A stretch of DNA of 29,860 nt. It comes from a virus. The notes below the pieces were generated by a model, which searched no databases, was not told the origin of the DNA, and saw only the letters and a list, made by a program, of their open reading frames with translations. How positions within the stretch are numbered: the stretch's first letter is position 1; each line of letters opens with the position of its first letter. Positions 2 through 18,294 of the stretch are shown here, piece after piece. A program made the position numbers and the translations under genes. Location of the stretch: IMG/VR virus record IMGVR_UViG_3300009180_000152, positions 1-29,860 of that record; one strand, written 5' to 3'.

Positions 2-280
2 ACCAATTGGGAGCAATGGTCTTGGGAGTACACTCCTGTTAATAGACAAGCTACTCCTAGTATAGACATAGCTATGGGTATAGCGGTAGCCTATATGGGC
101 ATAACTCCGTTCACCCCACTAGACTATCCAACATTTACACATTCAAAGCCAGAAAATTGGAGAAAGTTCTTAAGTCTGAATGTTGACCCCAACCAGGTAA
201 AAGTAGGTAATTATGTACAAACAGGCATTTTGCATTACGTGGATAAGGATATAGTTGATGAACTATCAAAAGCATTTTAA
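2..280 (+). CDS. 3' end of an unrecognised gene (partial)
   Basis: This reading frame is open from the window edge to a TAA at 278-280. Its start lies outside the window. The visible 92 residues are rich in Trp, Tyr and Pro near the start and end in a short acidic helix-like tail. An internal ATG at 74 exists, but the frame is open before it, so a truncated 3' end is more likely than a 68-residue gene. The stop overlaps the start of the next gene by 23 bases, which suggests translational coupling. The family is not recognised. Position ahead of a glycosyltransferase-like gene suggests it belongs to the same accessory operon. Confidence 0.6.
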   Translation, partial: TNWEQWSWEYTPVNRQATPSIDIAMGIAVAYMGITPFTPLDYPTFTHSKPENWRKFLSLNVDPNQVKVGNYVQTGILHYVDKDIVDELSKAF

Positions 281-1331
281 TATTGAGCTTTCGGAAATTG
301 AGCTCGATAACTTCGAATCTGGTTACTGGAAGGTAGAAGATTTTATCGTCGTTGATAATGAATTAGAAAGAGCAACTCCACTGATTAAAATCTCTGAGCC
401 AGAGATAGTTAAGAACGTCACCCTAAACGAACTCGACTGCATTTTTATCAGTTATGATGAACCTAACGCTGATCGTAACTGGGCAGATTTATTAAGCAAA
501 GCACCGTGGGCCAAAAGAGTACACGGAGTTAAAGGATCAGATGCCGCACACAAGGCCGCGGCTGAATTAAGCAATACTGAACGTTTTATTACCGTAGACG
601 GCGACAATATTGTAGACCCTAAGTTCTTTGATGTTGTATTGGATTTTGTTGGAACGCCTGTTCTTAGAAATAAACAGTTGTCTTGGTGTGGTAAAAACAT
701 TATAAACGGATTAGTTTACGGTAATGGCGGGTTAAAGTCCTGGACTAGAGAGTTTGTTCAAAATATGAAAACCCACGAGCTTGCTGATTCAGAACAATCC
801 CAAGTAGATTTTTGTTGGAGTGACGACTACAAGCAAATGGCCAACTTGTATTCAGTAAGTTATAATAATGCTAGTCCGTTACAAGCATGGCGAGCAGGAT
901 TCCGAGAAGGTGTAAAAATGACCTTAAACAACGGAGTTAAACAAAAACTTATTAATCCTAAACATCAGCTAGTTCGCCGCAATTATCAACGACTATTAAT
1001 ATGGTGTAATATAGGAGCAGATGTATCGCAAGGCATATGGGCAATGTACGGTGCTAGACTAGGATGCTATATGACCAATTGTACAGATTGGGATTATGTA
1101 CAAGTCCGAGACTTTGATTATCTTAATAACTTGTTTGAAGAACTAGCATGTAATGATCCCCTAGAGCAGATTCCACTGTTAGGTGAAAAATTAAAGCATG
1201 AACTAGATTTGCCTATGCAATATTTTAGTTCGGAACAAAGTCGTTTCTTTAAAGAAGTATGGGTCAATCCGCCTAGGTACGATCATATGGTTAAGGAACT
1301 AGATACTAATTGGGATTTACTTGACTTATGA
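258..1331 (+). CDS. GT-A-like glycosyltransferase family protein (paralogue 1)
   Basis: This 357-residue protein has a GT-A-like core. An opening strand runs from about residue 61 (CIFISYDEPNADRNW), a KRVHGVKG stretch lies at 86-93, and a DxD-type site (VDGDN) sits at 113-117, where such enzymes bind metal and nucleotide sugar. A glycine-rich stretch (NGLVYGNGG) follows. The same motif order appears in the protein at 1935-3080, so the two are paralogues. The ATG at 258 is preferred over a TTG at 255. Its end overlaps the next ATG by four bases. Likely cytosolic sugar transfer, but neither donor nor acceptor can be inferred. Glycosyltransferase is my best reading, from motif order rather than a confident family match. 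Confidence 0.55.
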   Translation: MNYQKHFNIELSEIELDNFESGYWKVEDFIVVDNELERATPLIKISEPEIVKNVTLNELDCIFISYDEPNADRNWADLLSKAPWAKRVHGVKGSDAAHKAAAELSNTERFITVDGDNIVDPKFFDVVLDFVGTPVLRNKQLSWCGKNIINGLVYGNGGLKSWTREFVQNMKTHELADSEQSQVDFCWSDDYKQMANLYSVSYNNASPLQAWRAGFREGVKMTLNNGVKQKLINPKHQLVRRNYQRLLIWCNIGADVSQGIWAMYGARLGCYMTNCTDWDYVQVRDFDYLNNLFEELACNDPLEQIPLLGEKLKHELDLPMQYFSSEQSRFFKEVWVNPPRYDHMVKELDTNWDLLDL

Positions 1332-1933
1332 CTATAGAATTTATTACAGCTAACGAAGAGTCCCCAGTAGTGGAGTTTGAGTATCCTGTAGATAATTTAC
1401 AGATGCTGTTTGACAATTATAAAGATTGGAGAACAGAGGATGATACTAGGGGACTCGAATATAAAGAATTAGATAAACGACTTACTCGTAAAAGTAATAA
1501 GATAGATAATTTAGATTTTACTTTGTTTGAACAAGCAATTGAAAAGTCTAAACTTCAGCTTGTTGAAAAATTTTTAACAATTGATACAAAAAGTAGATGG
1601 CCAAATATTGCTAGCTCTATGGTTAGACGCATTAACATTTATTCAACGTTAATAACAGATTTAAAAGGTTATAGTATGAATCAACATATCGATAACAGGT
1701 CTGTTTATGCGGCAGGGTATTTAAATATATTTGATAACGAATCGTTAACTGTGATTAGTTCGACTAAAAAATCATTTTTTGGAAAAGAAACGGAAACACA
1801 ATATCGAGCTCCTGGAAAGAAAGGCCGTGGAGTAATTTGGTTAAACACAGAAAACAGTTGGCATTGGGTAAACAAAGTATCTCAAGATAGAAAGATATTA
1901 ATGATGACATTTCAAATTGTTCCTTGGGATTAA
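1328..1933 (+). CDS. 2-oxoglutarate/Fe(II)-dependent oxygenase-like protein
   Basis: This 201-residue protein shows the facial triad of the cupin-fold oxygenases: H120 and D122 in MNQHIDN, then H179 in NSWHWVN. R188 (SQDRKILMMTF) sits at the spacing expected for the 2-oxoglutarate-binding arginine. The surrounding YAAGYLNIFDN and GRGVIWLN strands fit the double-stranded beta-helix. Known members hydroxylate or otherwise oxidise proteins, sugars, nucleic acids or small molecules. The gene sits between two glycosyltransferase-like paralogues, with a four-base ATGA overlap upstream, so a modified sugar or sugar-protein product is plausible but not shown. Confidence 0.6.
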   Translation: MTIEFITANEESPVVEFEYPVDNLQMLFDNYKDWRTEDDTRGLEYKELDKRLTRKSNKIDNLDFTLFEQAIEKSKLQLVEKFLTIDTKSRWPNIASSMVRRINIYSTLITDLKGYSMNQHIDNRSVYAAGYLNIFDNESLTVISSTKKSFFGKETETQYRAPGKKGRGVIWLNTENSWHWVNKVSQDRKILMMTFQIVPWD

Positions 1934-1934
1934 C

Positions 1935-3080
1935 ATGAAAATAGTTGATGCTGAATTAGTTAAATCTGTTGATTGGAATAGCAACCAGGCATTAAGCCGG
2001 CTATGCACCGACGAAGATTATTTTCTAGTTGTCAATCCAGAATTAGATGAATCAATTTTAAAACTAATTGATATTGACGTTCAGTTAAGTGATAATTGTA
2101 TTAAGTACAAAATTGGTGAAGGTTGGATTGCTAAACGTTTTCCTAAAAACTGGAACGGGCATGTTCAAATTGTTCAGCTACGGTTAACACCGCACCGCAT
2201 TGAAACAAATGAGTATGCCCTAGTCAATTCTAAAATACTAGATTATAAAGTTCCTGCTTGGGACTTGCCGTATAAACATATATGGACTTATAATACAGCA
2301 TTAACTAACGGCGCAGAAGTTGATGCTGTTACTGTGTCTTACATTGAGTCAGCTAGCGGGCGTAAGGTTATCGGAGTTGCTGATAACAAATACATAAACA
2401 ATCTATTTGATGTTATATTTTTAACATATAACGAAACAGATGCACAAGCTAATTGGGAACAATTACAAACTGTTTGCCCTAGAGCGAAAAGAGTTGTAGG
2501 AGTTAAAGGCATTTATAATGCACACATTGCGGCCTCTACTATAGCACAAACAGATATGTTTTATGTAGTTGACGCAGATGCGTTTGTTAAAGATTTTCAA
2601 TTTGATTACGTACCTCCTATCCAAGACAGAGATACTGTTCACATATGGTATAGTCACAACCCTGTAAACGGCTTAGAATACGGGTATGGCGGTATTAAGT
2701 TATTTTCTAAGTCACATTTTCAAACAGCACAAGCAGGAGTAATTGATACTGCGACTAGTGTGGGAGATGTTAAAGTAATACCCGTAGTTGCTTGTGAGAC
2801 TAGATTTAATACAGATGAGTTTAGTACTTGGAAAAGTGCATTTAGAGAATGTGCTAAACTTAGTTCTAAGCTCATAAAGAAACAACTCAATAAAGAAACT
2901 GTAGAAAGATTATATGCTTGGACAAATATTAACAACGGTGCTCAGTACGGCAAGTACGCTATTGCAGGAGCACTAGCTGGGGCCAAATATGGTAGTACAA
3001 ACATTAGCAATCCATACGCATTAGAAAAAATAAATGACTATGACTGGTTATTAACTCAATTTACAGAAGATCAAAAATGA
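1935..3080 (+). CDS. GT-A-like glycosyltransferase family protein (paralogue 2)
   Basis: The start ATG at 1935 lies one base after the upstream TAA, giving 381 residues. Residues 160-215 repeat the motif order of the protein at 258-1331: VIFLTYNETDAQANW, then KRVVGVKG at 185-192, and a DxD-type VVDADAF at 211-217. A glycine-rich NPVNGLEYGYGG stretch follows. The first 150 or so residues have no counterpart of equal length in paralogue 1 and may form an extra domain. The gene end overlaps the methyltransferase-like gene by four bases. A glycosyltransferase role is inferred from the DxD site and strand pattern; the substrate is unknown. Confidence 0.55.
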   Translation: MKIVDAELVKSVDWNSNQALSRLCTDEDYFLVVNPELDESILKLIDIDVQLSDNCIKYKIGEGWIAKRFPKNWNGHVQIVQLRLTPHRIETNEYALVNSKILDYKVPAWDLPYKHIWTYNTALTNGAEVDAVTVSYIESASGRKVIGVADNKYINNLFDVIFLTYNETDAQANWEQLQTVCPRAKRVVGVKGIYNAHIAASTIAQTDMFYVVDADAFVKDFQFDYVPPIQDRDTVHIWYSHNPVNGLEYGYGGIKLFSKSHFQTAQAGVIDTATSVGDVKVIPVVACETRFNTDEFSTWKSAFRECAKLSSKLIKKQLNKETVERLYAWTNINNGAQYGKYAIAGALAGAKYGSTNISNPYALEKINDYDWLLTQFTEDQK

Positions 3081-3622
3081 ATGTAGACAAAGATGCGTTT
3101 AGTAGCGGACAAATAGGCAGTAAGATTTGGCTTTGTGAAGAGCTGGAAAAAACCAATTGGGATGTAAATTATGTTTACCTCTTTGGTGGCTGGCATGGCA
3201 TGACCGCTTTCTTATTGTTATCGAGAGGAATCTTTAAGATGCAAAAGATTCGCAGTATTGATATAGACCCTGCCTGTGAAGCCATCGCTGATATGATTAA
3301 CGAGAATTGGGTATGGAAGGATTGGAAATTCAAAGCCATCACAGGAGACTGTAATACTTTTCAAACAGAGTTTAGGGGACTTATAATTAATACCAGCACC
3401 GAACACTTTGAAAGTATGGATTGGTTTAATAATCTTAGTAAAGGAACTAAAGTAGTATTACAGGGTAATAACATGCTTCATGATGAAGATACTGTTATTA
3501 TTAATAGCTTAGAAGAATTTAAGAGTAAGTATCCGTTGAGTGAATATCTTTATGCAGGAGAGAAACAATTTGTTTATCCTGATTGGCAATTTACCAGATA
3601 TATGACTATTGGAATTGTTTAA
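3077..3622 (+). CDS. class I SAM-dependent methyltransferase-like protein
   Basis: This 181-residue protein has the start of a Rossmann-like methyltransferase. The glycine motif YLFGGWHGMTAFLLL is at about residues 34-48, and an acidic end of strand 2 (SIDIDP, 60-65) would hold the SAM ribose. A GDCNTF turn near residue 90 and INTSTEHFESMDWF near 104 follow the usual motif order. Methyltransferases of this size are common in the accessory islands of marine T4-like phages. It is translationally coupled to the glycosyltransferase-like gene by an ATGA overlap and ends convergently, overlapping the next gene on the opposite strand by four bases. Confidence 0.6.
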   Translation: MNVDKDAFSSGQIGSKIWLCEELEKTNWDVNYVYLFGGWHGMTAFLLLSRGIFKMQKIRSIDIDPACEAIADMINENWVWKDWKFKAITGDCNTFQTEFRGLIINTSTEHFESMDWFNNLSKGTKVVLQGNNMLHDEDTVIINSLEEFKSKYPLSEYLYAGEKQFVYPDWQFTRYMTIGIV

Positions 3623-3795
3623 AGTGTTAGAGTAATATTAGAATCTGTAAGTACTACACTTTGGGTAATACGTCGTTCTACAAGTAACTGAGACCAAACT
3701 AGATTATCAGAGAAAACTGGCACATCAAATGTTTTTTCTTTTCCTGATTGAAAATCAACAATCTTAATTTCTACTGAAAAGTCTTTTCTATTCAT
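3619..3795 (-). CDS. small unrecognised protein coupled to the 3792-4556 gene
   Basis: The chosen ATG at 3795 overlaps the TGA of the upstream gene (ATGA, 3792-3795), giving 58 residues that start MNRKDFSVEIKIVDF. An ATG five codons upstream (3810) is also open but lies deeper inside the upstream gene. The sequence looks like a small beta-rich protein (alternating SVEIKIVDF, KTFDVPVF, SVVLTDSNITLTL). No family is recognised. Its co-translation with the 254-residue gene suggests the two act together. The 3' end overlaps the convergent methyltransferase-like gene by four bases. Confidence 0.6.
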   Translation of the reverse strand: MNRKDFSVEIKIVDFQSGKEKTFDVPVFSDNLVWSQLLVERRITQSVVLTDSNITLTL

Positions 3796-4556
3796 AGTAG
3801 TGACATCCATTTAGTAAAGGCTTTTGTGGTCCATTGATTTAAAAAATCATCCGACACTTCAGATTTAGCAATTTCTTGAATTAGAAACTGAGCAATTTTA
3901 ATATTTTGCCTGATAATTTTATCAGGGGTCTGAGTCCAACTATCAAAGTTTTTAACAAAATAGTAACCTTGTGCGTCTTCTAGTATATGTATAATTCCAA
4001 TCTCTGGAACGTAAATTTCTCCGTTGATTTCTAAATTATTTCTTGCAACTTTAATTGCGGCCTGCATTGCATAGTAGTACGGGTCTATAATATTATTTAG
4101 AAATGTTTCAATTGTGTTAGGATACAGGTAATGTCCAGCGATTTCTCCCACGCCTGCTCCAGGTCGAGCCGCCCTTGTATATTCCCAAATTTCCTCACCT
4201 ACTTCTATTTCTTCTCTTGAAATAGGAGCATCTATTCTAAATAAACCCGACGTTGATGCCTCAATAAACAAATCTTGAAACATTTTCCATTCTTTTCTAG
4301 ATCCATTTGAAATCGGTGCCCTTGTTGAATCAAGATTCCCAGCAAATGATTTTCTGTAAGTGTAAGTATGTCCTTCTATACAATCGTTAAACATGATCTT
4401 GTCGGTTTCTATTTGATAGTATCCGGTATCAGTCCAGTTGATAGCAAAATCCTTTAAAGGACTAATCAATAGATCCGGATTATTAAAATCATCAGAATTC
4501 CAAATATTTTGATCTATTGCAGACTGTAGGGCTTGAGAAAGTGTATTAGCATCCAT
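3792..4556 (-). CDS. unrecognised 254-residue phage protein
   Basis: This protein begins MDANTLSQALQSAIDQ, an amphipathic helix typical of phage structural or baseplate proteins. It ends in a helical segment (IAQFLIQEIAKSEVSDDFLNQW). The middle is mixed alpha/beta with many aromatic residues. No catalytic motif or membrane segment is visible. Only four bases separate the start codon from a TAAATA box (4561-4570), so late expression is likely. A late structural or assembly role is an inference from promoter type and N-terminal style. It runs opposite to the enzyme genes on both sides. Confidence 0.65.
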   Translation of the reverse strand: MDANTLSQALQSAIDQNIWNSDDFNNPDLLISPLKDFAINWTDTGYYQIETDKIMFNDCIEGHTYTYRKSFAGNLDSTRAPISNGSRKEWKMFQDLFIEASTSGLFRIDAPISREEIEVGEEIWEYTRAARPGAGVGEIAGHYLYPNTIETFLNNIIDPYYYAMQAAIKVARNNLEINGEIYVPEIGIIHILEDAQGYYFVKNFDSWTQTPDKIIRQNIKIAQFLIQEIAKSEVSDDFLNQWTTKAFTKWMSLL

Positions 4557-4560
4557 ATAA

Positions 4561-4570
4561 TTATTTATCC
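4561..4570 (-). promoter_or_regulatory. late-type promoter box (GGATAAATAA)
   Basis: On the minus strand the sequence reads GGATAAATAA, with the ATG of the 3792-4556 gene four bases after the box. It resembles the TATAAATA late promoter of T4-like phages. It is one of about ten such boxes in the left half of the window. Confidence 0.5.
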
Positions 4571-4598
4571 AGAACTATAATCTTGAATTAACTACCTA

Positions 4599-4607
4599 CT
4601 TAAATAC
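4599..4607 (+). promoter_or_regulatory. late-type promoter box (CTTAAATAC)
   Basis: The box lies four bases before the ATG at 4612 and is divergent from the box at 4561-4570. No sigma-70 -35 element is seen at the right distance. The implied transcript would have almost no leader, or else this element has a different role. Confidence 0.45.
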
Positions 4608-4611
4608 AGCT

Positions 4612-5970
4612 ATGGAACAACAACTTCAATTTTTTAAAAATGTAAAAGATCGACTTAATTCGGTAGGTCCTGGATTTTGTGCTATGAAATGGTTACACCA
4701 AACTTTGTATCTACATACAGGCGACAATCACAGTTGTTATCACCCTAAACCACATCATATCCAATTGGACGAAATCGCAGAAAACCCTGCGGCATTACAC
4801 AATACCAAGTGGAAGAAAGAACAACGCAAGGCCATGTTAGAAGGTGAGCGGCCTAAAGAATGTTATTACTGCTGGAACATTGAAGATTTACCAGGAGATC
4901 ACTCTAGCGATAGAGTATTGCATAGTGGCGGCAATCCTTGGGCAGAACAAGCTATTGAGAAACTAGCCCAACTACCTTGGGACGCTGATATTAATCCCAA
5001 GTACTTGGAAGTTAGCTTTGGTAACAACTGTAATTTCCGTTGCGGATACTGTGGGCCGCAAGCTAGTACCATGTGGATGGAAGAAGTAAAGAAATACGGT
5101 GACTACGATATTACACATCCGCAATATAGTATAGGCTTCCTAGATCACGGAACATACTATGGTCCTAAAGATGACAATCCCTATATCGATGCGTTTTGGA
5201 AATGGTGGCCAAGTCTACGCAAAGACCTACATACGCTTCGCATTACAGGAGGTGAACCATTAATGAATAAAGGTGCTATGGATTTCTTTGAGCTGTTAGA
5301 TCGAGAGCCTGCTCCAGACTTAGAAATTAGTATCAATAGCAATCTTGGAGTTAGTTTTAATAGAGTTGATAGATTTATAGAACAGGCTAAAAAATTGTTA
5401 AAAGACAAAAAGATCAAAACTCTCAATATTTTTACTTCAATTGATAGTTGGGGTCCTCAAGCCGAGTACATGCGTACTGGATTAAACTGTGCTCATTGGG
5501 AAAGAAACATGCTAGAGTTTGTTAAGCTAGGCAAACGTGTTAATTTTATGTGTACGTTTAATGTTCTGTGTGTGACAAACTATAAAAAATTATTAGAAAA
5601 AGTAATTGAATGGCGCAAACAATACGGATCGCATCTAATACATTTAGATATACCTTATTTGAAAGATCCTCCGCACTGGATGATTAACATTCTTCCTCCA
5701 GAGTTTATGAGCTATATGGATGACACACTTAAATTTATGGAAGATAATGCTGAATGGTTTGAATTATCAGAGATCGTTAAGTTTAGGCGTGTCCACGAAT
5801 ATATGAAAACCAATCCAGTTGATCAAGATAAGATCCGTAGGGGTCGTAGAGACTTTTATGTATTCTTTACAGAAAATGATAAACGATTAGGAACTAATTT
5901 GTTAGAACTATTCCCAGAATACACTGACTTTTATCAACTGTGCAAGGAAACATACGAATCTGGAAAATAA
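4612..5970 (+). CDS. twitch-type radical SAM protein 1
   Basis: This 452-residue radical SAM protein carries the CxxxCxxC cluster site at C140, C144 and C147 (GNNCNFRCGYC) and the GGEP motif at 213-216 that contacts SAM. The N-terminal part has further cysteines (C23, C42 and the CYYC pair at C84/C87). They sit before the core, as in the twitch-domain radical SAM proteins often seen in marine phages, and may bind a second cluster or zinc. The enzyme would cleave SAM to a 5'-deoxyadenosyl radical; the substrate is unknown. The gene follows a late-type box and heads a run of same-strand genes that includes three more radical SAM genes. Confidence 0.85.
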   Translation: MEQQLQFFKNVKDRLNSVGPGFCAMKWLHQTLYLHTGDNHSCYHPKPHHIQLDEIAENPAALHNTKWKKEQRKAMLEGERPKECYYCWNIEDLPGDHSSDRVLHSGGNPWAEQAIEKLAQLPWDADINPKYLEVSFGNNCNFRCGYCGPQASTMWMEEVKKYGDYDITHPQYSIGFLDHGTYYGPKDDNPYIDAFWKWWPSLRKDLHTLRITGGEPLMNKGAMDFFELLDREPAPDLEISINSNLGVSFNRVDRFIEQAKKLLKDKKIKTLNIFTSIDSWGPQAEYMRTGLNCAHWERNMLEFVKLGKRVNFMCTFNVLCVTNYKKLLEKVIEWRKQYGSHLIHLDIPYLKDPPHWMINILPPEFMSYMDDTLKFMEDNAEWFELSEIVKFRRVHEYMKTNPVDQDKIRRGRRDFYVFFTENDKRLGTNLLELFPEYTDFYQLCKETYESGK

Positions 5971-5989
5971 AAAGATTTGATACATAACT

Positions 5990-6724
5990 ATGACAAATTT
6001 TAATGTGTTATATGCTGGTCAATTGAGATTTGTTGAGTGTGCTCAGTATCATAAAATGCATATAGAGGGAGCAGAGTTAATTGATGCCGCATTCGTTGAT
6101 TCAGTGTTCGATATATGGAACACCAATATAGGTTCAAAACACAGCATCAATAATTTAAGTTTTAATGAATCTTTAGATTTTTTTAAACAAACAATTAATC
6201 CAACTAGTTGTACAGTAGTTGATGTGAAGAAGTATATTAATTTAATTGATGTTAGCAAAAGCAGATTTTTTTTATATCAACAGTTATTTTTGATGTTGAA
6301 TCATTTGAAAGAAAATGATGTAGTATTCTTTTTAACTCCGGAAATAGTTTTTAATAAAAAAACTTCATTAGACTTTAAACAAATAGCCAAATCTGTTCCG
6401 CAAGAGTCTCCCAAAGCATTTGGTTGGGTAGCGGATAACAATATGCTACACAACCATTTTATGTATTTTAATAGACTAGGAGTACGTACACTAAAAGAAA
6501 GATGGCATACACTTCGTTTTCTAGATATTAAAGATGCTAATATAGAAAATATTTGGTATAAGATTATTACAGACTGCGGAGTTGAAGTTATATCATCTGA
6601 GCTAGTTAACATGGACAACTATTGTTTAAGGTTTAAAAATAATATGGATTTTGATAAAATAACTGATTACAAATATCTAAATGAAAAAAGAAATCAATGG
6701 ACTATGATTCGAGAAGGAATATAA
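5990..6724 (+). CDS. unrecognised protein, possibly glycosyltransferase-like
   Basis: This 244-residue protein lies between two twitch-type radical SAM genes. Residues around 100-115 (LNHLKENDVVFFLTPEIVF) look like the strand that ends at the sugar-nucleotide site in GT-A-like enzymes, but no clear DxD motif follows. HNHFMYFNR near residue 158 and ERWHTLRF near 170 are notable aromatic and basic patches. There is no signal peptide or membrane segment. The coding sequence is A/T-rich, like its neighbours. Position suggests it prepares or binds the substrate of the flanking radical SAM proteins. A glycosyltransferase-like fold is only a weak guess. Confidence 0.6.
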   Translation: MTNFNVLYAGQLRFVECAQYHKMHIEGAELIDAAFVDSVFDIWNTNIGSKHSINNLSFNESLDFFKQTINPTSCTVVDVKKYINLIDVSKSRFFLYQQLFLMLNHLKENDVVFFLTPEIVFNKKTSLDFKQIAKSVPQESPKAFGWVADNNMLHNHFMYFNRLGVRTLKERWHTLRFLDIKDANIENIWYKIITDCGVEVISSELVNMDNYCLRFKNNMDFDKITDYKYLNEKRNQWTMIREGI

Positions 6725-6725
6725 T

Positions 6726-7895
6726 ATGAAAAGTAATACTTGGTGCATAAATGCATTCCATAGCCTAAGTGCAAGTAATGACGGAACTACTCGTCCGTGT
6801 TGTATGTATGTTAGTCAAGATCCTGATAGCAAATACATACTGGGCGAAAAAACTATAGAAGAACATCTTAATCATCCCGAATTACAACAACTAAAAAAAG
6901 ACTGTGAGACTGGTGTTCGTAATACAGGTTGTATTCGTTGTTGGGAAGAAGAAGACGGGGGCGGAAAAAGCAAGCGACTTAGAGATAACGAGCGATATAA
7001 TCAACAACAGGGGCTGGTTTATTTTGAAGCCAGTTTAGGTAATCAATGTAATATCCGTTGTAGAACATGTAATCCCCATTCAAGCAGTCAATGGGTTGAC
7101 GAGGGATATGATACACAATATCATAAAATCTATGCTATTAAAGATTACCGAAGCCATATCAAAAAGTTTTATAAAAGTTTTGAAGAAGAAAGTAATTTTT
7201 GGCCAGATCTAGAAAGCCATCTACATACTATAAAACATTTAGAGTTTTATGGAGGGGAACCTTTTATGAGCAAGAAGATGTGGAGTATATTAGAACTTGC
7301 TGTAGAAAAAGGATATGCCAAAGATATAGAAGTACACTACGCTACTAATGGTACTTTATGGCCTAAACAGGTTGAAGTGTGGAAACATTTTAAAAGAATA
7401 TCTGTACATTTTAGCATAGATGGAGTTGGTAAACAATTTGAATACATGCGTTATCTAGCAGACTGGGAAGTTGTTCAGGCTAATATGGCCAAGTCTAGAA
7501 CACAAGAAGGCAATTTAACAATAGGTTGGTTTATTACTTTGAGTAATTTAAATGTTTATTATCTTCCAGAGATTATAGAAGAGTACTATAGGGCATACCC
7601 AGACTTTGGAAGTTTTCTAAATCTAGTCCACGGCCCAAGACATTTCAATATTAGCATTATGCCAGAAGATGTTAAAAAGATCGTTCTTGATAGACTTAAT
7701 TCAATACCAAAGTCCTATAGACATGTATGGACACAATTACCGGGCATTATTGGATTCATTGAGAACGGCACACCTGATCCGGCTATGTGGGATACGTTTC
7801 TAGAAGAAATTAAAATACACGACGATTATCGAAAACAAGATTACGCAGAAGTGTTTCCGGAATTTGCAAAAATTATAGGGCTAGCACATGACTGA
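6726..7895 (+). CDS. twitch-type radical SAM protein 2
   Basis: This 389-residue protein has its CxxxCxxC site at C108, C112 and C115 (GNQCNIRCRTC) and a GGEP motif at 176-179. Before the core lie C7, C25, C26, C60 and a CIRC pair at C69/C72, the same kind of N-terminal cysteine region as in the protein at 4612-5970. The two are therefore likely paralogues. A phenylalanine and tyrosine-rich stretch and an SIDG segment follow the core, as usual in radical SAM barrels. The ATG lies one base after the upstream stop, and the 3' end overlaps the next radical SAM gene by eight bases, so tight coupling is likely. Substrate unknown. Confidence 0.85.
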   Translation: MKSNTWCINAFHSLSASNDGTTRPCCMYVSQDPDSKYILGEKTIEEHLNHPELQQLKKDCETGVRNTGCIRCWEEEDGGGKSKRLRDNERYNQQQGLVYFEASLGNQCNIRCRTCNPHSSSQWVDEGYDTQYHKIYAIKDYRSHIKKFYKSFEEESNFWPDLESHLHTIKHLEFYGGEPFMSKKMWSILELAVEKGYAKDIEVHYATNGTLWPKQVEVWKHFKRISVHFSIDGVGKQFEYMRYLADWEVVQANMAKSRTQEGNLTIGWFITLSNLNVYYLPEIIEEYYRAYPDFGSFLNLVHGPRHFNISIMPEDVKKIVLDRLNSIPKSYRHVWTQLPGIIGFIENGTPDPAMWDTFLEEIKIHDDYRKQDYAEVFPEFAKIIGLAHD

Positions 7896-9171
7896 GTTCT
7901 GGAAGACGCAAGAAGTACGTCAACTGCATATTGAATTAACCAATGCATGTAATGCCGCATGTCCCATGTGTGTACGTTTCTATCGAAACTCTCCGTTAGT
8001 CAGACCTGACTTAGAAATAGGAGAGATATCTTTAGAAAAATTCAAAGAATACTTTCCACCAGATTTGTTATCAGGGCTAGTTAAGATAATGTTTTGCGGA
8101 ACACAAGGTGATCCTTGTATGGCCAGCAATACATTAGAAATTTGTGAATATATTCTAGAGCATACTCAATATCAAAAAACAGCTTGGTGGAAGCCTAAAA
8201 AGAAAAGCGATTTTGTTCTACAGATGCATACTAACGGAGGTATGCGTAATCCCGAATGGTGGGCTAAGTTAGGTGCTGTATTCGCTAAACGCAATCCTAG
8301 AGATTTAACCTGTTGGAGACTTATTTTTAGCATTGACGGATTAGAAGATACTAATCATATATATCGCAGAAATGTTAAATGGAAAAACTTAATGGCCAAT
8401 GCTAAAGCATTTATAGATGCTGGCGGTAACGCTGTGTGGGAATACTTGATATTTGAACATAACGAACATCAAATAGAAGAAGCTCGCAAAATGGCAGACG
8501 ATCTAGGGTTTGTATTGTTTGTTCCTAAAAAAGCATTAGGAGTAGATACCGGTAGTTATCTAACCACTTTACCTGCGGTAACTAGGGATGGAGAATTAGA
8601 TTATATGATTCATGCTCCAAAAGATCCAGATAATAGAATCTTAAGAGATCCTGTAGGAGGAGAAACCCGCCCAGCTCGTTGGTACCCATTTAAATTTGAA
8701 GAGTACAAAGCACTAAGAGCAGACAAGTCTAATGACAACTATGAAGAAAAGTTTAATAAAGTCTATGAGATAATCAATAAACAGGATACTAGCAAACTTG
8801 ATGCTTGTACAATTAAATGTAAAGCAAATGTATTTAGAGACGATAAAGAAATATTTGTTGATAATTTTGGAAGAGTATTGCCTTGTTGTTACATAGGTAC
8901 ACACATTAGTGGAACATTTACAGACTACAGATCAATGCAGTTACACAAGCATATGAACGACTACGGATGGGATCATTTTGATCTCAACAAACATTCATTA
9001 AAAGATATTTTAGATGATGGACATTTAGATCGAGTCTATGCCGATTCTTGGTCTAAGGATAGTGTTAAGGATGGTAAGATGGCCTACTGTTCTAGTATCT
9101 GCGGAGAAACAAGCCGCATTGATAAAGTATACTTTGGAGCCGTTGATCCAAGTAAGATAAAACAAAAATAA
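7888..9171 (+). CDS. radical SAM/SPASM-type protein 1
   Basis: This 427-residue protein begins close to its cluster site, C21, C25 and C28 (LTNACNAACPMC). FCGTQGDP near residue 70 replaces the GGEP motif, as in many SPASM-type enzymes. The C-terminal third holds a cysteine pattern typical of a SPASM or related auxiliary-cluster domain: CTIKC, then the IFVDNFGRVLPCCYIG segment, then CSSIC. SPASM proteins commonly modify peptides or small molecules, for example in peptide maturation or coenzyme synthesis. The architecture matches the protein at 11110-12207, so these two form a second radical SAM pair next to the twitch pair. Substrate unknown. Confidence 0.85.
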   Translation: MTEFWKTQEVRQLHIELTNACNAACPMCVRFYRNSPLVRPDLEIGEISLEKFKEYFPPDLLSGLVKIMFCGTQGDPCMASNTLEICEYILEHTQYQKTAWWKPKKKSDFVLQMHTNGGMRNPEWWAKLGAVFAKRNPRDLTCWRLIFSIDGLEDTNHIYRRNVKWKNLMANAKAFIDAGGNAVWEYLIFEHNEHQIEEARKMADDLGFVLFVPKKALGVDTGSYLTTLPAVTRDGELDYMIHAPKDPDNRILRDPVGGETRPARWYPFKFEEYKALRADKSNDNYEEKFNKVYEIINKQDTSKLDACTIKCKANVFRDDKEIFVDNFGRVLPCCYIGTHISGTFTDYRSMQLHKHMNDYGWDHFDLNKHSLKDILDDGHLDRVYADSWSKDSVKDGKMAYCSSICGETSRIDKVYFGAVDPSKIKQK

Positions 9172-9190
9172 TCGAGCCTGATTAGGCCCC

Positions 9191-9199
9191 TAATAAATA
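9191..9199 (+). promoter_or_regulatory. late-type promoter box (TAATAAATA)
   Basis: The box ends five bases before the ATG at 9205. It follows a short GCCT/AGGC hairpin in the gap after the SPASM-type gene. Similar boxes precede many starts in the left half of the window. Confidence 0.45.
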
Positions 9200-9204
9200 T
9201 TTTT

Positions 9205-9828
9205 ATGAACCTACAATCTTTAAATCCTAATAATTTTTATCATAAGATATTTTATGAATCTTGTGCAGAATTTGAGGAAGTACGAGAATTATGTCTGAGC
9301 GAAGATAATTGGCTTAGAGAAATATATACTCCAAAGTTTTTAATTTTGGAAAAACACGTAGGGTATGTAGTAGTTTACGATAAAATTACGCACGAACCGG
9401 TTGTAATGGCCGGGTTATTCAATGATGGGCGATATCCATCTAATATCGCTATACATCTGCATCGAGCATACCTGTTTCCTAAATATAGACAAAGAAGTTT
9501 TAGAGGAATGGTAGATATATTCCGTATGGTAGACGCACAGATAATTAAACCTTTAAATTTAATTAAACAGTTTGATGCTTACTTTATAACGATACAGTCT
9601 CGTGAGAAAAAAGAAACTGTGGGATGGTGGAATGTATATCATTCTGCATTTTGTAAAGCTATCCCCGGTCTTAAGAAGGGGGAAGGCTTTATACAAACGT
9701 GTCCATATGATGTACAAAAATGTTGGCAATATCATCTGTATTATGAACATGTTCCAGGTACATGGGCGACCTGGGATAAACGATCTGTCACTGAAGAGGA
9801 TTGGAAAAAAATGCCAATAGGGGATTAA
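9205..9828 (+). CDS. GNAT-like acyltransferase fold protein (tentative)
   Basis: This 207-residue protein has a stretch that fits GNAT folds. A strand (YVVVYDKITHEPVVMAGLF) is followed by a strand and turn (IAIHLHRAYLFPKYRQRSFRG) where GNAT enzymes bind the acyl-CoA pyrophosphate through an R/Q-x-x-G-x-G/A loop. The match here is loose, KYRQRSFRG. The C-terminal part is rich in Trp, Tyr and His. If correct, it would transfer an acyl group within the island pathway. A late-type box lies just upstream and the oxygenase-like pair follows six bases later. Another possibility is a phage-specific fold of unknown role. Confidence 0.5.
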   Translation: MNLQSLNPNNFYHKIFYESCAEFEEVRELCLSEDNWLREIYTPKFLILEKHVGYVVVYDKITHEPVVMAGLFNDGRYPSNIAIHLHRAYLFPKYRQRSFRGMVDIFRMVDAQIIKPLNLIKQFDAYFITIQSREKKETVGWWNVYHSAFCKAIPGLKKGEGFIQTCPYDVQKCWQYHLYYEHVPGTWATWDKRSVTEEDWKKMPIGD

Positions 9829-9834
9829 AATAAA

Positions 9835-10518
9835 ATGACTACAAAATACTATCACTCGCTAGACTTTGATCTATCCATTGAGGCTAAGCAATGGGTTTTA
9901 GATAGATACAAAGATAAATTTAAAGAACAATTTTATCATCACGACGATACATCGGAATTCTTTTCAAAACAAGCACAAGAAGAATGGCATTCAAGTCTAG
10001 TGGGTATCGAAATTAATGATTTTTTAAAAAATTACGGGTGTGATACTAGTATGGCAGGTATTACTACATTCATATGTAATAGAGAAGAATACTATCCAGG
10101 AAATCCGCATATGGATATCCTATGTAAAAGTCTTATCAATAAAGTATTAGGTACTACATACAAATACGAAAAAGTTATCAAGACAAGATTAAACATCATG
10201 GTACAAGGAAATCCAGAAGATGAAATGTGGTGGTGGGGTGACTTTGGCCCGGATCATCCTGCTTTGGCTGACGTTGAATATCTTGATTTAAGCACAAATC
10301 TTCCGTTTACCTGTAGAAATATTCCGGGAAAAACTAAAGAAGACAGATTAAAATTAGCAGGAACTCCTACCTGTATAGCAGGAAATATATTAATGCCCAC
10401 TGCATTTGTTAAAACAGATTGTGTGCATACAGTAAACTGTAGTCCCGTTCCTCGAATAATTGTAACAGTTCCATTGGATAAGTCAATTGAAGAAATTTTA
10501 TCATTCACTAACGTTTAA
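9835..10518 (+). CDS. 2OG/Fe(II) oxygenase-like protein, tandem copy A
   Basis: This 227-residue protein carries an HxD at H92/D94 (NPHMDI), a later H198 (KTDCVHTV) and R207 (PRIIVTV). This order is the metal and 2-oxoglutarate signature of cupin-fold oxygenases. A tryptophan-rich MWWWGDF lies between them. Residues 4-26 (KYYHSLDFDLS, then WVLDRYKDK) align with the start of the next protein, and the shared ending (KTDCxHTV, PRxIVTVxLDKSIEE) shows a tandem duplication. The reaction would be an oxidation coupled to 2-oxoglutarate, with unknown substrate. The 3' end overlaps copy B by 32 bases. Confidence 0.6.
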   Translation: MTTKYYHSLDFDLSIEAKQWVLDRYKDKFKEQFYHHDDTSEFFSKQAQEEWHSSLVGIEINDFLKNYGCDTSMAGITTFICNREEYYPGNPHMDILCKSLINKVLGTTYKYEKVIKTRLNIMVQGNPEDEMWWWGDFGPDHPALADVEYLDLSTNLPFTCRNIPGKTKEDRLKLAGTPTCIAGNILMPTAFVKTDCVHTVNCSPVPRIIVTVPLDKSIEEILSFTNV

Positions 10519-11131
10519 TTTTTCTAACAATGCTCGAGAATGGATTTTAAATCGATATAAAGATCGATTAACGGGCAACATTGGACATAATACTGACCTA
10601 ACTCAATACACTCCGGAAGCACAAGCTGAATGGCGTAATAGTATAGTAGGGCAAGAATTAAATGCCTTTTTAAATCAATACGGGTGTGATACTGAATTTG
10701 GTGGTATAAACGTGTTTATGTGTACATTGGGTAACCCGGATCCACATATTGATACAAAGGCTGATCCTAAAACAGGCGCAGTCTACAGAATACGGTCAAG
10801 ACTAAATGTCATGGTCATGGGAAATCCCTATGATCCTTTAATTTGGTGGGGTAGTCTTGAATACGACGATCCTAGGATAGTAGAAACTAAATTCCTAGCA
10901 CCTAATGGTCGTGAGTATACCAACAAGAGTGTTCCAGGGCATGACACACAAAGTAGATATGAGTTTTTAGGAGCTCCAGAGTTAGTTGCAAGAAATGTCT
11001 ATACTCCCAGCGCATTTGTCAAAACAGATTGCGCTCATACAGTACATTTTACGCCTGGCCCAAGACTGATTGTTACTGTAGCATTAGATAAATCAATTGA
11101 AGAGCTTGTATGTTTAAATTTAACGAATTAA
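10487..11131 (+). CDS. 2OG/Fe(II) oxygenase-like protein, tandem copy B
   Basis: This 214-residue paralogue of copy A has H87/D89 (DPHIDT), H184 (KTDCAHTV) and R193 (PRLIVTV). The start is a TTG at 10487 inside copy A. It is chosen because the residues KFYHSLTFNFS then align with KYYHSLDFDLS of copy A, and the next ATG would cut this region off. The 3' end overlaps the following radical SAM gene by 22 bases. Nested starts on both sides suggest strict co-translation. It lacks the roughly ten-residue insertion that copy A has after its HxD motif. Substrate unknown. Confidence 0.6.
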   Translation: MKKFYHSLTFNFSNNAREWILNRYKDRLTGNIGHNTDLTQYTPEAQAEWRNSIVGQELNAFLNQYGCDTEFGGINVFMCTLGNPDPHIDTKADPKTGAVYRIRSRLNVMVMGNPYDPLIWWGSLEYDDPRIVETKFLAPNGREYTNKSVPGHDTQSRYEFLGAPELVARNVYTPSAFVKTDCAHTVHFTPGPRLIVTVALDKSIEELVCLNLTN

Positions 11132-12207
11132 AACAAATACATCTTGAAATTACCAATAACTGTCAAGCCAGTTGTCCCCAATGTCAGCGAAACATACATG
11201 GTGGGCTAGATAATCCATTGATAAAATTATCTAGTTGGTCTTTGGAACAGTTTAAAAGTATTATGACTGCGGATGTACTAAATCAAATTGACAAGTATTA
11301 CTTCTGCGGTAACTTTGGTGATCCGTTATTAAACAATGATCTAATCGCAATGATTGAATACTCTGTGTCTGTTAATCCCAATTTACACGTATGGATCTAC
11401 ACCAACGGAAGCCTTAGATCTAAAGACTGGTGGCAACAGTTAGCCAAAGCTCTGCCAAAAAATCATAGGGTAGTTTTTGCTATTGACGGATTAGAAGATA
11501 CACACAGTTTGTATCGGGTAGGTACTGACTTTGATAAGATCATAGATAATGCTTACGATTTTATACAAGCTGGAGGCATTGCTGAGTGGGCATTTATTCG
11601 ATTTAAACACAATGAGCATCAAGTTGCCAAAGTCAAGCAATTAGCCAATGAGTTAGGATTTGAATCATTTTCGATGAAGGACAGCGGCCGTTTCTTCTTT
11701 GATCCAACTTTTCCTGTTTATGATAAAAATGGGGATACTACACGACTTCTAGAGCCAAGCGGCTACAGCGAAATTAAATTTATCGATCGAAACGCTATAA
11801 CTAATTTTCGAGATATTGCAAAAGAAAGTATTATCAAATGTGGCGCAATAGAACAACATGAACTATATATCGATGCATACGGGCAAGTATTTCCTTGCTG
11901 TTATCTGGGCATAATACCATATATACCGGTAGATACTATTGTTGGTATGACTCAGATTAGGTTGCAAATGTTAAATGAATATCACAGCCTAATTGAAGCT
12001 CTAGGCGGTGCTATATCACAGAATGCTTATCACTACTCCATTAAGGATATTATTAATAGTGAGATGTATCAAAACATCTGGGAGAAATTTTGGAATAACA
12101 AGCAATTAAACATGTGTGTAGCAATGTGTGGAACATCGTCAAAGATATCTAAGCCTAAAGAAATGTTTATTGAACGTAGTGATTTAGATGGTACCAGGGT
12201 CAGTTAA
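11110..12207 (+). CDS. radical SAM/SPASM-type protein 2
   Basis: This 365-residue protein has the cluster site near its start, C18, C22 and C25 (TNNCQASCPQC), then YFCGNFGDP in place of GGEP, and an AIDGLEDTHSLYR segment nearly the same as one in the protein at 7888-9171. The C-terminal cysteines (KCGAIEQ, then YIDAYGQVFPCCYLG, then CVAMC) match a SPASM-like auxiliary-cluster domain. It is about 60 residues shorter than its paralogue, mainly in the middle. It begins inside the oxygenase copy B gene. Its 3' end overlaps the convergent PP-loop gene by 24 bases. Confidence 0.85.
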   Translation: MFKFNELKQIHLEITNNCQASCPQCQRNIHGGLDNPLIKLSSWSLEQFKSIMTADVLNQIDKYYFCGNFGDPLLNNDLIAMIEYSVSVNPNLHVWIYTNGSLRSKDWWQQLAKALPKNHRVVFAIDGLEDTHSLYRVGTDFDKIIDNAYDFIQAGGIAEWAFIRFKHNEHQVAKVKQLANELGFESFSMKDSGRFFFDPTFPVYDKNGDTTRLLEPSGYSEIKFIDRNAITNFRDIAKESIIKCGAIEQHELYIDAYGQVFPCCYLGIIPYIPVDTIVGMTQIRLQMLNEYHSLIEALGGAISQNAYHYSIKDIINSEMYQNIWEKFWNNKQLNMCVAMCGTSSKISKPKEMFIERSDLDGTRVS

Positions 12208-12804
12208 CCCACATTGTGCAAATCCCCAGTTGCGTTCGTTACAACCATTGCAACTGTTACATTTACCTATTTCCAATATTGAACAACTGTGTGTAAGATA
12301 GAACAAGGCTTCTTGTTTATGACGCACAATAAGATCAATAATGTAGCCCTTGGTTATATCTTTGAAGGGTAACTTGATTATTTCAGTATCACCTGTGGGA
12401 GCAGGATCGTAACCAATAATGTGTTCAGGCAGTTGAGTAATTACGCCGCCGTATATAGAATTAAATCCCATATGCATAACGCTAGTTGCGCCACTCATAA
12501 CTTGTAGGTGACCGGGTAAACTAGGATCGCCAACTTCGTGGGGGTCTTTATAAGGTATATTGAACTGTGAGTGTACGTGAGCTATAACAGGACGAGTAAA
12601 ATAACGAGAACCCTCAGTCCTGTTTACAGTAAAGGGTATAATTTGATGCAGGTTACCTTGTTCAGCATTGGCCTTCAATAACAAGTAATAGAGTATAGCA
12701 CTATCCATTCCACCACTTATGAATATAGCGATCTTTGTGGGAGTTAAGGGTAGATCAATTGAAACAGTACGTTCTATGCCACCGGCACTACAATTAAATT
12801 TCAT
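12184..12804 (-). CDS. QueC-like PP-loop ATPase
   Basis: This 206-residue protein has the PP-loop SGGMDSA at 30-36 (ATP pyrophosphatase site). Near the C-terminus it has four cysteines, C174-x7-C182-x2-C185-x2-C188 followed by NER, which match the zinc site of QueC, the 7-cyano-7-deazaguanine synthase. QueC turns 7-carboxy-7-deazaguanine into preQ0 and is used in tRNA queuosine and in phage DNA modification. No QueD, QueE or FolE partner is visible, although radical SAM proteins lie next door. None of those has the short QueE form that I can recognise. It may instead be a related amidating or adenylating enzyme of the island. A TATAAATA box lies four bases before the start. Confidence 0.65.
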   Translation of the reverse strand: MKFNCSAGGIERTVSIDLPLTPTKIAIFISGGMDSAILYYLLLKANAEQGNLHQIIPFTVNRTEGSRYFTRPVIAHVHSQFNIPYKDPHEVGDPSLPGHLQVMSGATSVMHMGFNSIYGGVITQLPEHIIGYDPAPTGDTEIIKLPFKDITKGYIIDLIVRHKQEALFYLTHSCSILEIGKCNSCNGCNERNWGFAQCGLTDPGTI

Positions 12805-12808
12805 AGTA

Positions 12809-12817
12809 ATATTTATA
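12809..12817 (-). promoter_or_regulatory. late-type promoter box (TATAAATAT)
   Basis: This is the closest match to the T4 TATAAATA late box in the window. It lies four bases upstream of the QueC-like start and is divergent from the box at 12819-12828. Confidence 0.55.
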
Positions 12818-12818
12818 G

Positions 12819-12828
12819 TATTAAATAC
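12819..12828 (+). promoter_or_regulatory. late-type promoter box (TATTAAATAC)
   Basis: The box is divergent from the previous one. It drives the dehydrogenase-like gene with a 26-base leader that contains AAAGGAAA, a plausible ribosome binding site. Confidence 0.5.
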
Positions 12829-12854
12829 CTAGTTAATAATAAAGGAAATCAATT

Positions 12855-13502
12855 ATGAACATAGTTGTATTTGGGGGTGGTCAACCTGGTAAATTTGGCA
12901 ATGATTTTTGTAAGATCGCTCGTAGAGAAGGGCATAATGTTTTTATCCTATCTCATAGAGACTATGCCAACGGTGACCCACAACACACGCATACCGACGT
13001 CAATGAAAGACAGTATGTGGTTGAAGATTTCAATCGGCTAATCCAATCAATTGATCACATAGACATATTTCTTTACAATGGACGCATGGATGGATACCCG
13101 GGCAGACCTGAACAATTCACATCTACTGCAAGAGTAAGTTCGGATATGTGGTATAGTAACTTATACTTTACTGTTGTCTTAGCCCACATATTATCTATCG
13201 AAGCTCTAAAGAAAATGTCCAAGGGTAGTAAGATAGTATTCTTGACCACAGGTATGGCCACAGAATTTGAAAGAACCACATGGACTGAAATGGCTGGATA
13301 CGCTGGTGTTAAAGCGGCACAAAATCACCTTATGTTATCTTTAGCCAATCACAATGATCGTGAAGCATTTGTTTGTTCAATTAGTCCACATTTTCCCTAC
13401 GAAGATAGACCCGCCTACAATCGTGTATGTAGAAGTGTCTACGATAATATACTAGGGTTTGATTCTACTCAAAACGGAAAAATAAAAGTAATACACGGGT
13501 AG
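12855..13502 (+). CDS. short-chain dehydrogenase/reductase-like protein
   Basis: This 215-residue protein has the Rossmann start of the SDR family: VVFGGGQPGKFG at 4-15 binds the dinucleotide, and YNG at 74-76 takes the place of the NAG motif. TTG at 131-133 supplies the usual catalytic Ser/Thr position, and YAGVK (Y149, K153) is the catalytic YxxxK. The length is near the lower end for the family. It would reduce or oxidise a hydroxyl/keto group with NAD(P). Sugar-nucleotide or island-product processing is plausible. It ends the enzyme island. A ribosome binding site (AAAGGAAA) lies just upstream. Confidence 0.7.
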   Translation: MNIVVFGGGQPGKFGNDFCKIARREGHNVFILSHRDYANGDPQHTHTDVNERQYVVEDFNRLIQSIDHIDIFLYNGRMDGYPGRPEQFTSTARVSSDMWYSNLYFTVVLAHILSIEALKKMSKGSKIVFLTTGMATEFERTTWTEMAGYAGVKAAQNHLMLSLANHNDREAFVCSISPHFPYEDRPAYNRVCRSVYDNILGFDSTQNGKIKVIHG

Positions 13503-13503
13503 A

Positions 13504-13719
13504 CTAGCTGTAGTCTGGAACGTCGCCACCGTACTTGGTGCTCTTGGCTTTCTTGCCTTTGAGATAATGGCCGTTGCCATCAGTGTGACCTTTGCCTTTA
13601 GAAGTGTGAGCACGGAGCCCTTGGCTCACACAACTACTGTAGTCCGAACGTCCTAGTCGACGACCCGAACGGCAAAGTTTAGGATCTGTTTTTTCTGTTA
13701 TAAATTCATGGGCTCTCAT
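13504..13719 (-). CDS. small basic phage protein with MRAHEF start
   Basis: This 71-residue protein begins MRAHEFITEK, an N-terminal style I recall from many late proteins of T4-like phages from aquatic habitats. It continues with a Gly, Ser, Lys and His-rich low-complexity C-terminus and two cysteines (C16, C30). It has no membrane segment. A late-type box lies five bases before the ATG. A virion-associated or DNA-contacting role is an inference from basic charge and late promoter type. The 3' end abuts the convergent dehydrogenase-like gene. Confidence 0.6.
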   Translation of the reverse strand: MRAHEFITEKTDPKLCRSGRRLGRSDYSSCVSQGLRAHTSKGKGHTDGNGHYLKGKKAKSTKYGGDVPDYS

Positions 13720-18217: not shown

Positions 18218-18294
18218 GGGCCGTTAGCTCATTTGGTTAGAGCAGAGGACTCATAATCCTTTGGTGGAGTGTTCGAATCACTCACGGCCCACCA
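18218..18294 (+). tRNA. tRNA with CAT anticodon, probably tRNA-Ile2 (AUA)
   Basis: The sequence folds into a full cloverleaf: a seven-pair acceptor stem, GCTC/GAGC D stem, GAGGA/TCCTT anticodon stem with loop CTCATAA, GAGTG/CACTC T stem with loop TTCGAAT, discriminator A and an encoded CCA. The anticodon is CAT. Pairs 4-69 and 5-68 of the acceptor stem are both C-G, which are known positive signs for TilS lysidine formation, unlike elongator tRNA-Met of E. coli. It is therefore probably Ile2, reading AUA, a common codon in this A/T-rich genome. Elongator Met cannot be excluded. Confidence 0.9.

Follow-up and report, generated by a model that had tools for sequence, protein, structure and literature searches.

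An enzyme island of glycosyltransferases, radical SAM enzymes and predicted 2OG oxygenases in an uncultivated freshwater phage, and its possible role in surface decoration

The first 13.5 kb of IMG/VR virus record IMGVR_UViG_3300009180_000152, an uncultivated freshwater phage, carry an island of enzyme genes that belong to the glycosyltransferase, radical S-adenosylmethionine (SAM) and 2-oxoglutarate (2OG)-Fe(II) oxygenase families. The whole record of 29,860 bases is referred to as the window. We tentatively read the island, at a little under an even chance, as a group of enzymes that work in the cytosol to glycosylate and chemically modify a surface structure. The tail fibre of the phage itself is the likeliest candidate, a substrate that we infer from gene neighbourhood. 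The enzyme families, their order and co-occurrence, the position of tail-fibre genes in relatives and the small number of predicted membrane proteins are observed; that the gene products act together is our proposal.

Gene order and co-occurrence

Viral loci were collected through the GT-A-like glycosyltransferase GT2 of the island (80 loci) and its radical SAM enzyme RS3 (nine loci), and together with the window they leave 45 loci after dereplication. In many of these, the genes follow the order tail fibre–F9–F8–GT8–GT8–(F11/F13)–GT1–(GT2)–radical SAM, with 0–15 radical SAM genes at the end (F numbers denote our gene families). Where the contigs of relatives extend to the left, tail-fibre genes lie upstream of F9/F8 according to PHROG matches. 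Because the 45-locus set was chosen through GT2, we made the reciprocal test from RS1, another radical SAM enzyme of the island. Among 67 dereplicated viral loci found via RS1 alone, the GT1/GT2 family is present in 57 and a pair of GT8-like genes in 47, and 57 loci carry at least two radical SAM genes. By comparison, among 62 control loci collected with gp88, an unrelated phage gene of the window outside the island, the radical SAM and GT1/GT2 families occur in two, and these are the same two loci. Because contig ends truncate many of the loci, the co-occurrence counts are lower bounds. An earlier, sequence-only reading of this DNA had regarded the genes as a co-inherited enzyme set. The strong reciprocal co-occurrence supports this, and the opposite pattern, homologues scattered singly, was looked for and is not what the RS1 loci display.

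Three loci (L086, L032, and L069) have GT1/GT2 genes without any radical SAM gene. Therefore, the glycosyltransferases look like a constant core and the radical SAM genes like cargo. At the other extreme, 15 radical SAM matches were counted on contig G007, and about 23 kb of it accommodate 14 of them. The cassette is common to G001/G006 and to G007/G009, which have few other genes in common; by sequence comparison, it is spread over distinct, otherwise differing phage lineages. In one relative, the baseplate hub resembles that of PA5oct-type jumbo phages (32%). The ratio of nonsynonymous to synonymous substitution (dN/dS) is 0.06–0.17 for those island enzymes whose dS is below saturation, and this purifying selection indicates that the enzymes are maintained.

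In the proposed mechanism, two GT8-like and two GT-A glycosyltransferases would build a glycan in the cytosol of the infected cell, most likely on the tail-fibre or adhesin protein encoded just upstream. The radical SAM enzymes, the methyltransferase and, in this phage, the 2OG oxygenases would then alter sugars or protein side chains by C–H chemistry, which the enzyme families suggest could be epimerisation, dehydrogenation, hydroxylation or methylation. The variable radical SAM cargo behind the constant glycosyltransferase core would diversify the decoration and hence receptor binding or recognition.

Enzyme families of the island

The island comprises sixteen main genes, most of which are encoded on the + strand. 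The gene coordinates given earlier agree with recomputed open reading frames (ORFs), and the many overlapping starts seen in the sequence-only reading are confirmed: neighbouring genes mostly overlap by 4–32 bp, frequently by 4 bases, or are separated by gaps of less than 60 bp. The genes are as follows.

2–280, + strand: 3' end of a GT8/glycogenin-like glycosyltransferase gene, family F5, cut at the contig edge
258–1331, + strand: GT1, GT-A-like glycosyltransferase, family F2 (AlphaFold2 model, invariant DxD)
1328–1933, + strand: OX1, probable 2OG-Fe(II) oxygenase, prolyl 4-hydroxylase (P4H)-like, a weak assignment (PF13640 below cut-off)
1935–3080, + strand: GT2, paralogue of GT1 (frame open from TTG 1917; ATG 1935 is the likelier start)
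3077–3622, + strand: MT, methyltransferase-like by motifs, family F6
3619–4556, - strand: two overlapping genes (3619–3810 and 3792–4556), no Pfam match above cut-off, poorly conserved in locus L007
4612–5970, + strand: RS1, N-twitch radical SAM enzyme (PF04055 32 bits, NF033640 312 bits)
5990–6724, + strand: conserved protein, no Pfam match; a 43% homologue lies between the radical SAM genes of L009
6726–7895, + strand: RS2, N-twitch radical SAM enzyme (PF04055 35 bits, NF033640 308 bits)
7888–9171, + strand: RS3, radical SAM enzyme with C-terminal auxiliary cysteines, SPASM/twitch-like (PF04055 30.3 bits)
9205–9828, + strand: conserved protein that reaches no Pfam cut-off and has counterparts in L009 and L007 (57–80% identity)
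9835–10518, + strand: OX2, predicted 2OG-Fe(II) oxygenase of the double-stranded beta-helix (DSBH) fold (invariant H92/D94/H198/R207, model pLDDT 85)
10487–11131, + strand: OX3, paralogue of OX2 (41–44% identity, same triad)
11110–12207, + strand: RS4, radical SAM/SPASM-like enzyme (PF04055 33.7 bits; PF13186 20.4 bits, cut-off 21.5)
12184–12804, - strand: QueC-like PP-loop ATPase (PF06508 29 bits, cut-off 22)
12855–13502, + strand: SDR-like (short-chain dehydrogenase/reductase) oxidoreductase (PF00106 E 3e-4, below cut-off); 58% identity in L117, where it is linked to OX and QueC genes

All four radical SAM proteins score above the PF04055 gathering threshold and contain CxxxCxxC, confirming their assignment to the superfamily. 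Among 430 viral ORFs that encode at least 250 residues, 142 contain this motif, compared with 0.2% of shuffled ORFs. RS1 and RS2, previously described as twitch-type, are members of the N_Twi_rSAM family NF033640 (cut-off 170 bits); for N-twitch enzymes, viral contigs yielded at least 593 matching regions. The auxiliary cysteines of RS1 and RS2 are N-terminal. In an alignment of 35 viral relatives, residues C23, C84, and C87 are present in every row, as is the CxxxCxxC motif (C140/C144/C147 in RS1), and C42 is kept in at least 90% of rows. RS3 and RS4 are without the N-twitch domain and instead keep the C-terminal residues C311, C333, C334, C401, and C405, which are invariant in 15 relatives; RS3 also has C21/C25/C28. 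Neither protein is a SPASM member by profile, since RS4 falls just below the PF13186 cut-off and RS3 gives no match. 'SPASM/twitch-like' is a fair label for both because the C-terminal cysteines are invariant in relatives, so the earlier call of two SPASM-type genes holds in this looser form. The dS between RS4 and its L007 counterpart is 0.27, whereas dS of the neighbouring genes is 0.9 or more, or saturated, indicating recent recombination of RS4 alone.

The GT1 model (pLDDT 87) matches GT-A structures over residues 57–204, with a Foldseek E of about 2e-4 and a VIA Z of about 10, and D114xD116 is invariant in 45 sequences. These results bear out the assignment of two GT-A-like paralogues. 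MobA and IspD, nucleotidyltransferases that share this fold, score like glycosyltransferases against GT1; therefore, the name 'glycosyltransferase', and with it the transferase type, leans on context. The sequence-only reading overlooked the nature of the partial ORF at the left edge, as well as the tail-fibre genes that relatives carry upstream. A profile of F5 built from full-length relatives matches glycogenin with an E of 7e-8 and has an invariant D70xD72, which places the family in GT8. It is the second of two GT8-like genes; the profile of the other, further upstream, matches glycogenin with an E of 0.05 and also has an invariant DxD. A GDP-mannose-dehydratase/epimerase family (F12) of nucleoside diphosphate (NDP)-sugar genes is present in relatives. 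MT occurs in 23 of the 45 viral loci and has conserved GGW...D.D and NTSxEH motifs. Its best methyltransferase match in the PDB has an E of 0.07 only, and the methyltransferase-like call thus becomes a weaker one that relies on motifs.

The HxD...H...R pattern by itself is weak evidence for an oxygenase, as it occurs in 1.5–11% of shuffled sequences. Neither OX2 nor OX3 matches a Pfam family, and their H92/D94/H198/R207 residues are invariant in 12 relatives, the most distant of which have 31% identity. The OX2 model, one of two structure predictions made (the other is GT1), matches the 2OG oxygenases NO66, FIH, prolyl hydroxylases (P4H), WelO5, and vCPH. OX2 and OX3 are thus predicted DSBH-fold 2OG-Fe(II) oxygenases. 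OX1 reaches 19.1 bits against the 27-bit cut-off of PF13640 (E 0.0027), and its HxDN stretch is retained in L007 and L117. OX1-like matches are also found in the radical SAM islands L294, L300, L286, and L341, directly before GT2 in the first two. Of the three oxygenase-like proteins named earlier, two are therefore well founded and OX1 is weaker.

The PP-loop gene is QueC-like, as had been noted, by its PF06508 domain, and SGGxDS and four cysteines are conserved in six sequences. Its score against the QueC equivalog TIGR00364 is 16 bits, compared with a cut-off of 150. No match to TGT/DpdA was found in the nine records searched; PTPS/QueD gave no match in the window and close relatives and matched only in two records outside the lineage of the window. 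Because the equivalog score is far below cut-off and TGT and QueD were not found, we regard the product as a QueC-like PP-loop enzyme with no evidence for deazaguanine synthesis. The SDR-like call is weaker given the sub-threshold PF00106 score.

OX3 or OX2 co-occurs with QueC in L117 and L122–L126, in loci without matches to the glycosyltransferase/radical SAM island, and L117 has the run OX2–OX2–OX3–QueC–OX1–SDR. By gene content, the OX2/OX3–QueC–SDR end is better read as a second module, separable from the rest, that was added to the island. The earlier notion of a near-complete modification pathway thus gives way to two separable modules in the 13 kb. In other phage contigs, at L122:3409–11829 and L126:3439–10747, several small ORFs in a row show the HxD...H...R pattern and adjoin a QueC-like PP-loop gene. 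They are possible oxygenase arrays by this pattern, which often arises by chance. The QueC domain is matched two to four times in related contigs.

Candidate substrates

The earlier reading left the product as a glycan, a peptide or a nucleotide derivative. A glycan is best supported, by the GT8 pair, the GT-A pair, the NDP-sugar dehydratase/epimerase genes of relatives and the adjacent tail fibres. Few island proteins are predicted membrane proteins: a transmembrane segment is predicted for 6 of 419 ORFs in the viral islands, compared with 109 of 464 ORFs that neighbour RS1 relatives in bacteria. Because of this scarcity, the tail-fibre adjacency, the four-glycosyltransferase core and the sugar-nucleotide dehydratase genes, we favour a cytosolic protein acceptor, in the simplest case the fibre, over a membrane-linked O-antigen. 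Collagen-like tail fibres were considered as a general substrate of the hydroxylases and glycosyltransferases and rejected, as GXY runs are found in contig G006 only.

The cellular relatives of RS1 were found in a genome scan with a narrower RS1-type profile, because one built from diverse N-twitch proteins was too variable, and the matches are thus biased to the RS1 branch. Nearly all cellular members of this branch are from Bdellovibrionota. Their neighbours include group-1 glycosyltransferases, a carbamoyltransferase, a DegT aminotransferase and ABC (ABC-2) transporters. A PqqD-like gene lies close to the RS1 relative in about twelve loci of Bdellovibrionota. GT2 adjoins RS1 in one cellular locus (L129) and MT adjoins RS1 in two (L143, L150).

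Several points weigh against a tail-fibre substrate. No island gene has a characterised orthologue, and the N_Twi_rSAM family is without known function. The cellular relatives sit amid polysaccharide-synthesis and ABC-export genes or beside PqqD, contexts that would fit host-surface polysaccharide or peptide substrates equally well. In addition, tail-fibre genes are not inside the window itself, because its left end is cut; judging from its relatives, the island of this phage apparently lies just downstream of its tail-fibre genes. Proximity to tail fibres could also merely mark a hot spot where insertions are tolerated.

The main rival to the tail-fibre reading is that the island remodels the host surface polysaccharide during infection, for example by a change of O-chain or for superinfection exclusion. 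We consider this unlikely, yet it draws on the cellular neighbourhoods described above and on the GT8-rich host recognition cluster (HRC) of pelagimyophages, which has been interpreted as a means of host-surface change (PMC7029224). The viral islands, however, have almost no predicted membrane proteins, flippase or exporter, in contrast to the bacterial loci. A ribosomally synthesised and post-translationally modified peptide (RiPP) is an improbable product, and of small probability overall. Auxiliary clusters of the SPASM/twitch type are typical of peptide maturases, and the PqqD-like genes of Bdellovibrionota provide indirect support. On the viral side, however, the loci have no PqqD homologue, no precursor was seen in them, no RiPP-specific equivalog reaches its cut-off, and no precursor-like small ORF was seen adjacent in the window, in agreement with the earlier remark that no precursor peptide is obvious; the gaps are too short to hide one. 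The combination of precursor and PqqD-like RiPP recognition element (RRE) that defines a RiPP cluster is thus not found. A conserved 73-residue protein (F25), encoded between MT and radical SAM genes in five loci, was considered as a precursor and is not precursor-like.

It is also rather improbable, if less so than a RiPP, that two independent functions merely adjoin, namely decoration by the glycosyltransferases and radical SAM enzymes, and synthesis or modification of a small molecule, nucleotide or protein by OX2/OX3, QueC and SDR for a different purpose. The loci that have OX2/OX3 and QueC without the radical SAM island are consistent with this, L117 having SDR and OX1-like genes as well, as are the pattern-only ORF runs of L122 and L126. 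Against it, genes of one set overlap and alternate with those of the other in the window and L007, where OX3 and QueC flank RS4, and QueC is a neighbour of MT and radical SAM genes in L307. Hypermodification of DNA or nucleotides, of the 7-deazaguanine or the thymidine/cytosine type, is very improbable. Known phage pathways of DNA hypermodification include counterparts of QueC-like, radical SAM, 2OG oxygenase and glycosyltransferase genes, and these families occur in the island. However, OX2 and OX3 give no Tet/JBP match, the island lies at tail fibres, and 7-deazaguanine modification was rejected because its partner genes (TGT/DpdA, PTPS/QueD) were not found in the searches above. The nucleotide product put forward earlier thus finds no support.

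Comparison with known phage systems

The closest described system is the pelagimyophage HRC, for which radical SAM gene cassettes have been described (Zaragoza-Solas et al. 2020, PMC7029224). Like the island, it is hypervariable and beside tail fibres, and it combines GT8 glycosyltransferases with radical SAM cassettes. The HRC is placed between VrlC and gp14 (Kyanoviridae-like); tail fibres adjoin the island in relatives, and VrlC and gp14 were not identified. The cultivated Pelagibacter phage Mosig EXVC030M has an analogous block of Asp/Arg hydroxylase, TauD, acetyltransferase, methylase, radical SAM and carbamoyltransferase genes beside its tail-fibre genes. Unlike the island, Mosig has no N_Twi_rSAM match, and the relatives of the window seem to belong to other phage lineages. 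The Mosig block (52–73 kb of L366) also includes desaturase, nitroreductase and aminotransferase genes; because the host of Mosig is named, the block is accessible to experiment.

Many radical SAM genes per genome are also reported for T4-like phages: 12 in TARA_ERS488813_N000010 (PMC5332604) and 11–12 in Campylobacter phages CP220/CPt10, where they are clustered and interchangeable, with a swappable module of five (PMC2853527). The accessible parts of these reports mention neither a glycosyltransferase core nor a link to tail fibres. The island family differs in that up to 15 radical SAM genes in one contig stand behind a constant glycosyltransferase core. Within NF033640, to which RS1 and RS2 belong by score, the RS1 branch is viral or from Bdellovibrionota. 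Among Vibrio phages K566/K567, the deposited genome of K566 has five N_Twi_rSAM genes within about 17 kb. Unlike those of the island, they have about 25% identity to RS1, and no tail-fibre gene is annotated in the 25 kb around the match.

Radical SAM cassettes in host-recognition islands (PMC7029224) and phage genomes with about a dozen radical SAM genes (PMC5332604, PMC2853527) are already described. As far as the literature searched shows, the fixed GT8–GT8–GT1(–GT2)–N-twitch order, its spread over distinct lineages and the link to Bdellovibrionota enzymes are new. So is the absence of the glycosyltransferase core (GT1, GT2, and F5/F8) from the 50,697 phage records searched. In the same literature, we found neither a virion protein that radical SAM enzymes mature nor a report joining these enzymes with virion modification.

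Host range is decided by phage tail fibres. In many uncultivated phages, a fixed glycosyltransferase core may glycosylate a tail-fibre adhesin, to which exchangeable radical SAM (up to 15) and 2OG enzymes would add non-standard chemistry, as parts of a modular system of post-translational modification; we regard this generalisation as possible though doubtful. If true, it would offer a chemical means of receptor diversification, with a role like that of diversity-generating retroelements. A widespread conserved cassette at tail fibres points to an unstudied chemical layer of phage–host recognition, and hundreds of N-twitch radical SAM enzymes gain a testable context.

Other observations concern cellular bins and the remainder of the window. 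A complete tail-fibre/glycosyltransferase/radical SAM cassette is present on L167 and L168 (153 kb and 335 kb), which are binned as Neomarinimicrobiota and are probably jumbo phage within that bin. The PqqD-like (RRE) genes of Bdellovibrionota, at L199:3561–3842 and similarly in L171, L172, L179, L186, L191, L192, and L195, are often divergently transcribed. Together with the nearby RS1-type genes, they are candidate uncharacterised peptide-modification pairs in predatory bacteria. Beyond the island, a 71-residue 'MRAHEFI' protein (13504–13719) is 74–76% identical in L009 and L016, and its gene and that of a cell-wall hydrolase (PF07486, 13736–14410) remain together. A DNA search of the window for near matches in phage records returned nothing but the tRNA with anticodon CAT at 18218–18294, 48 bases of which match, at 92%, a stretch covered by the integrase annotation of Pseudomonas phage phi3; this match is a weak hint of a proteobacterial host.

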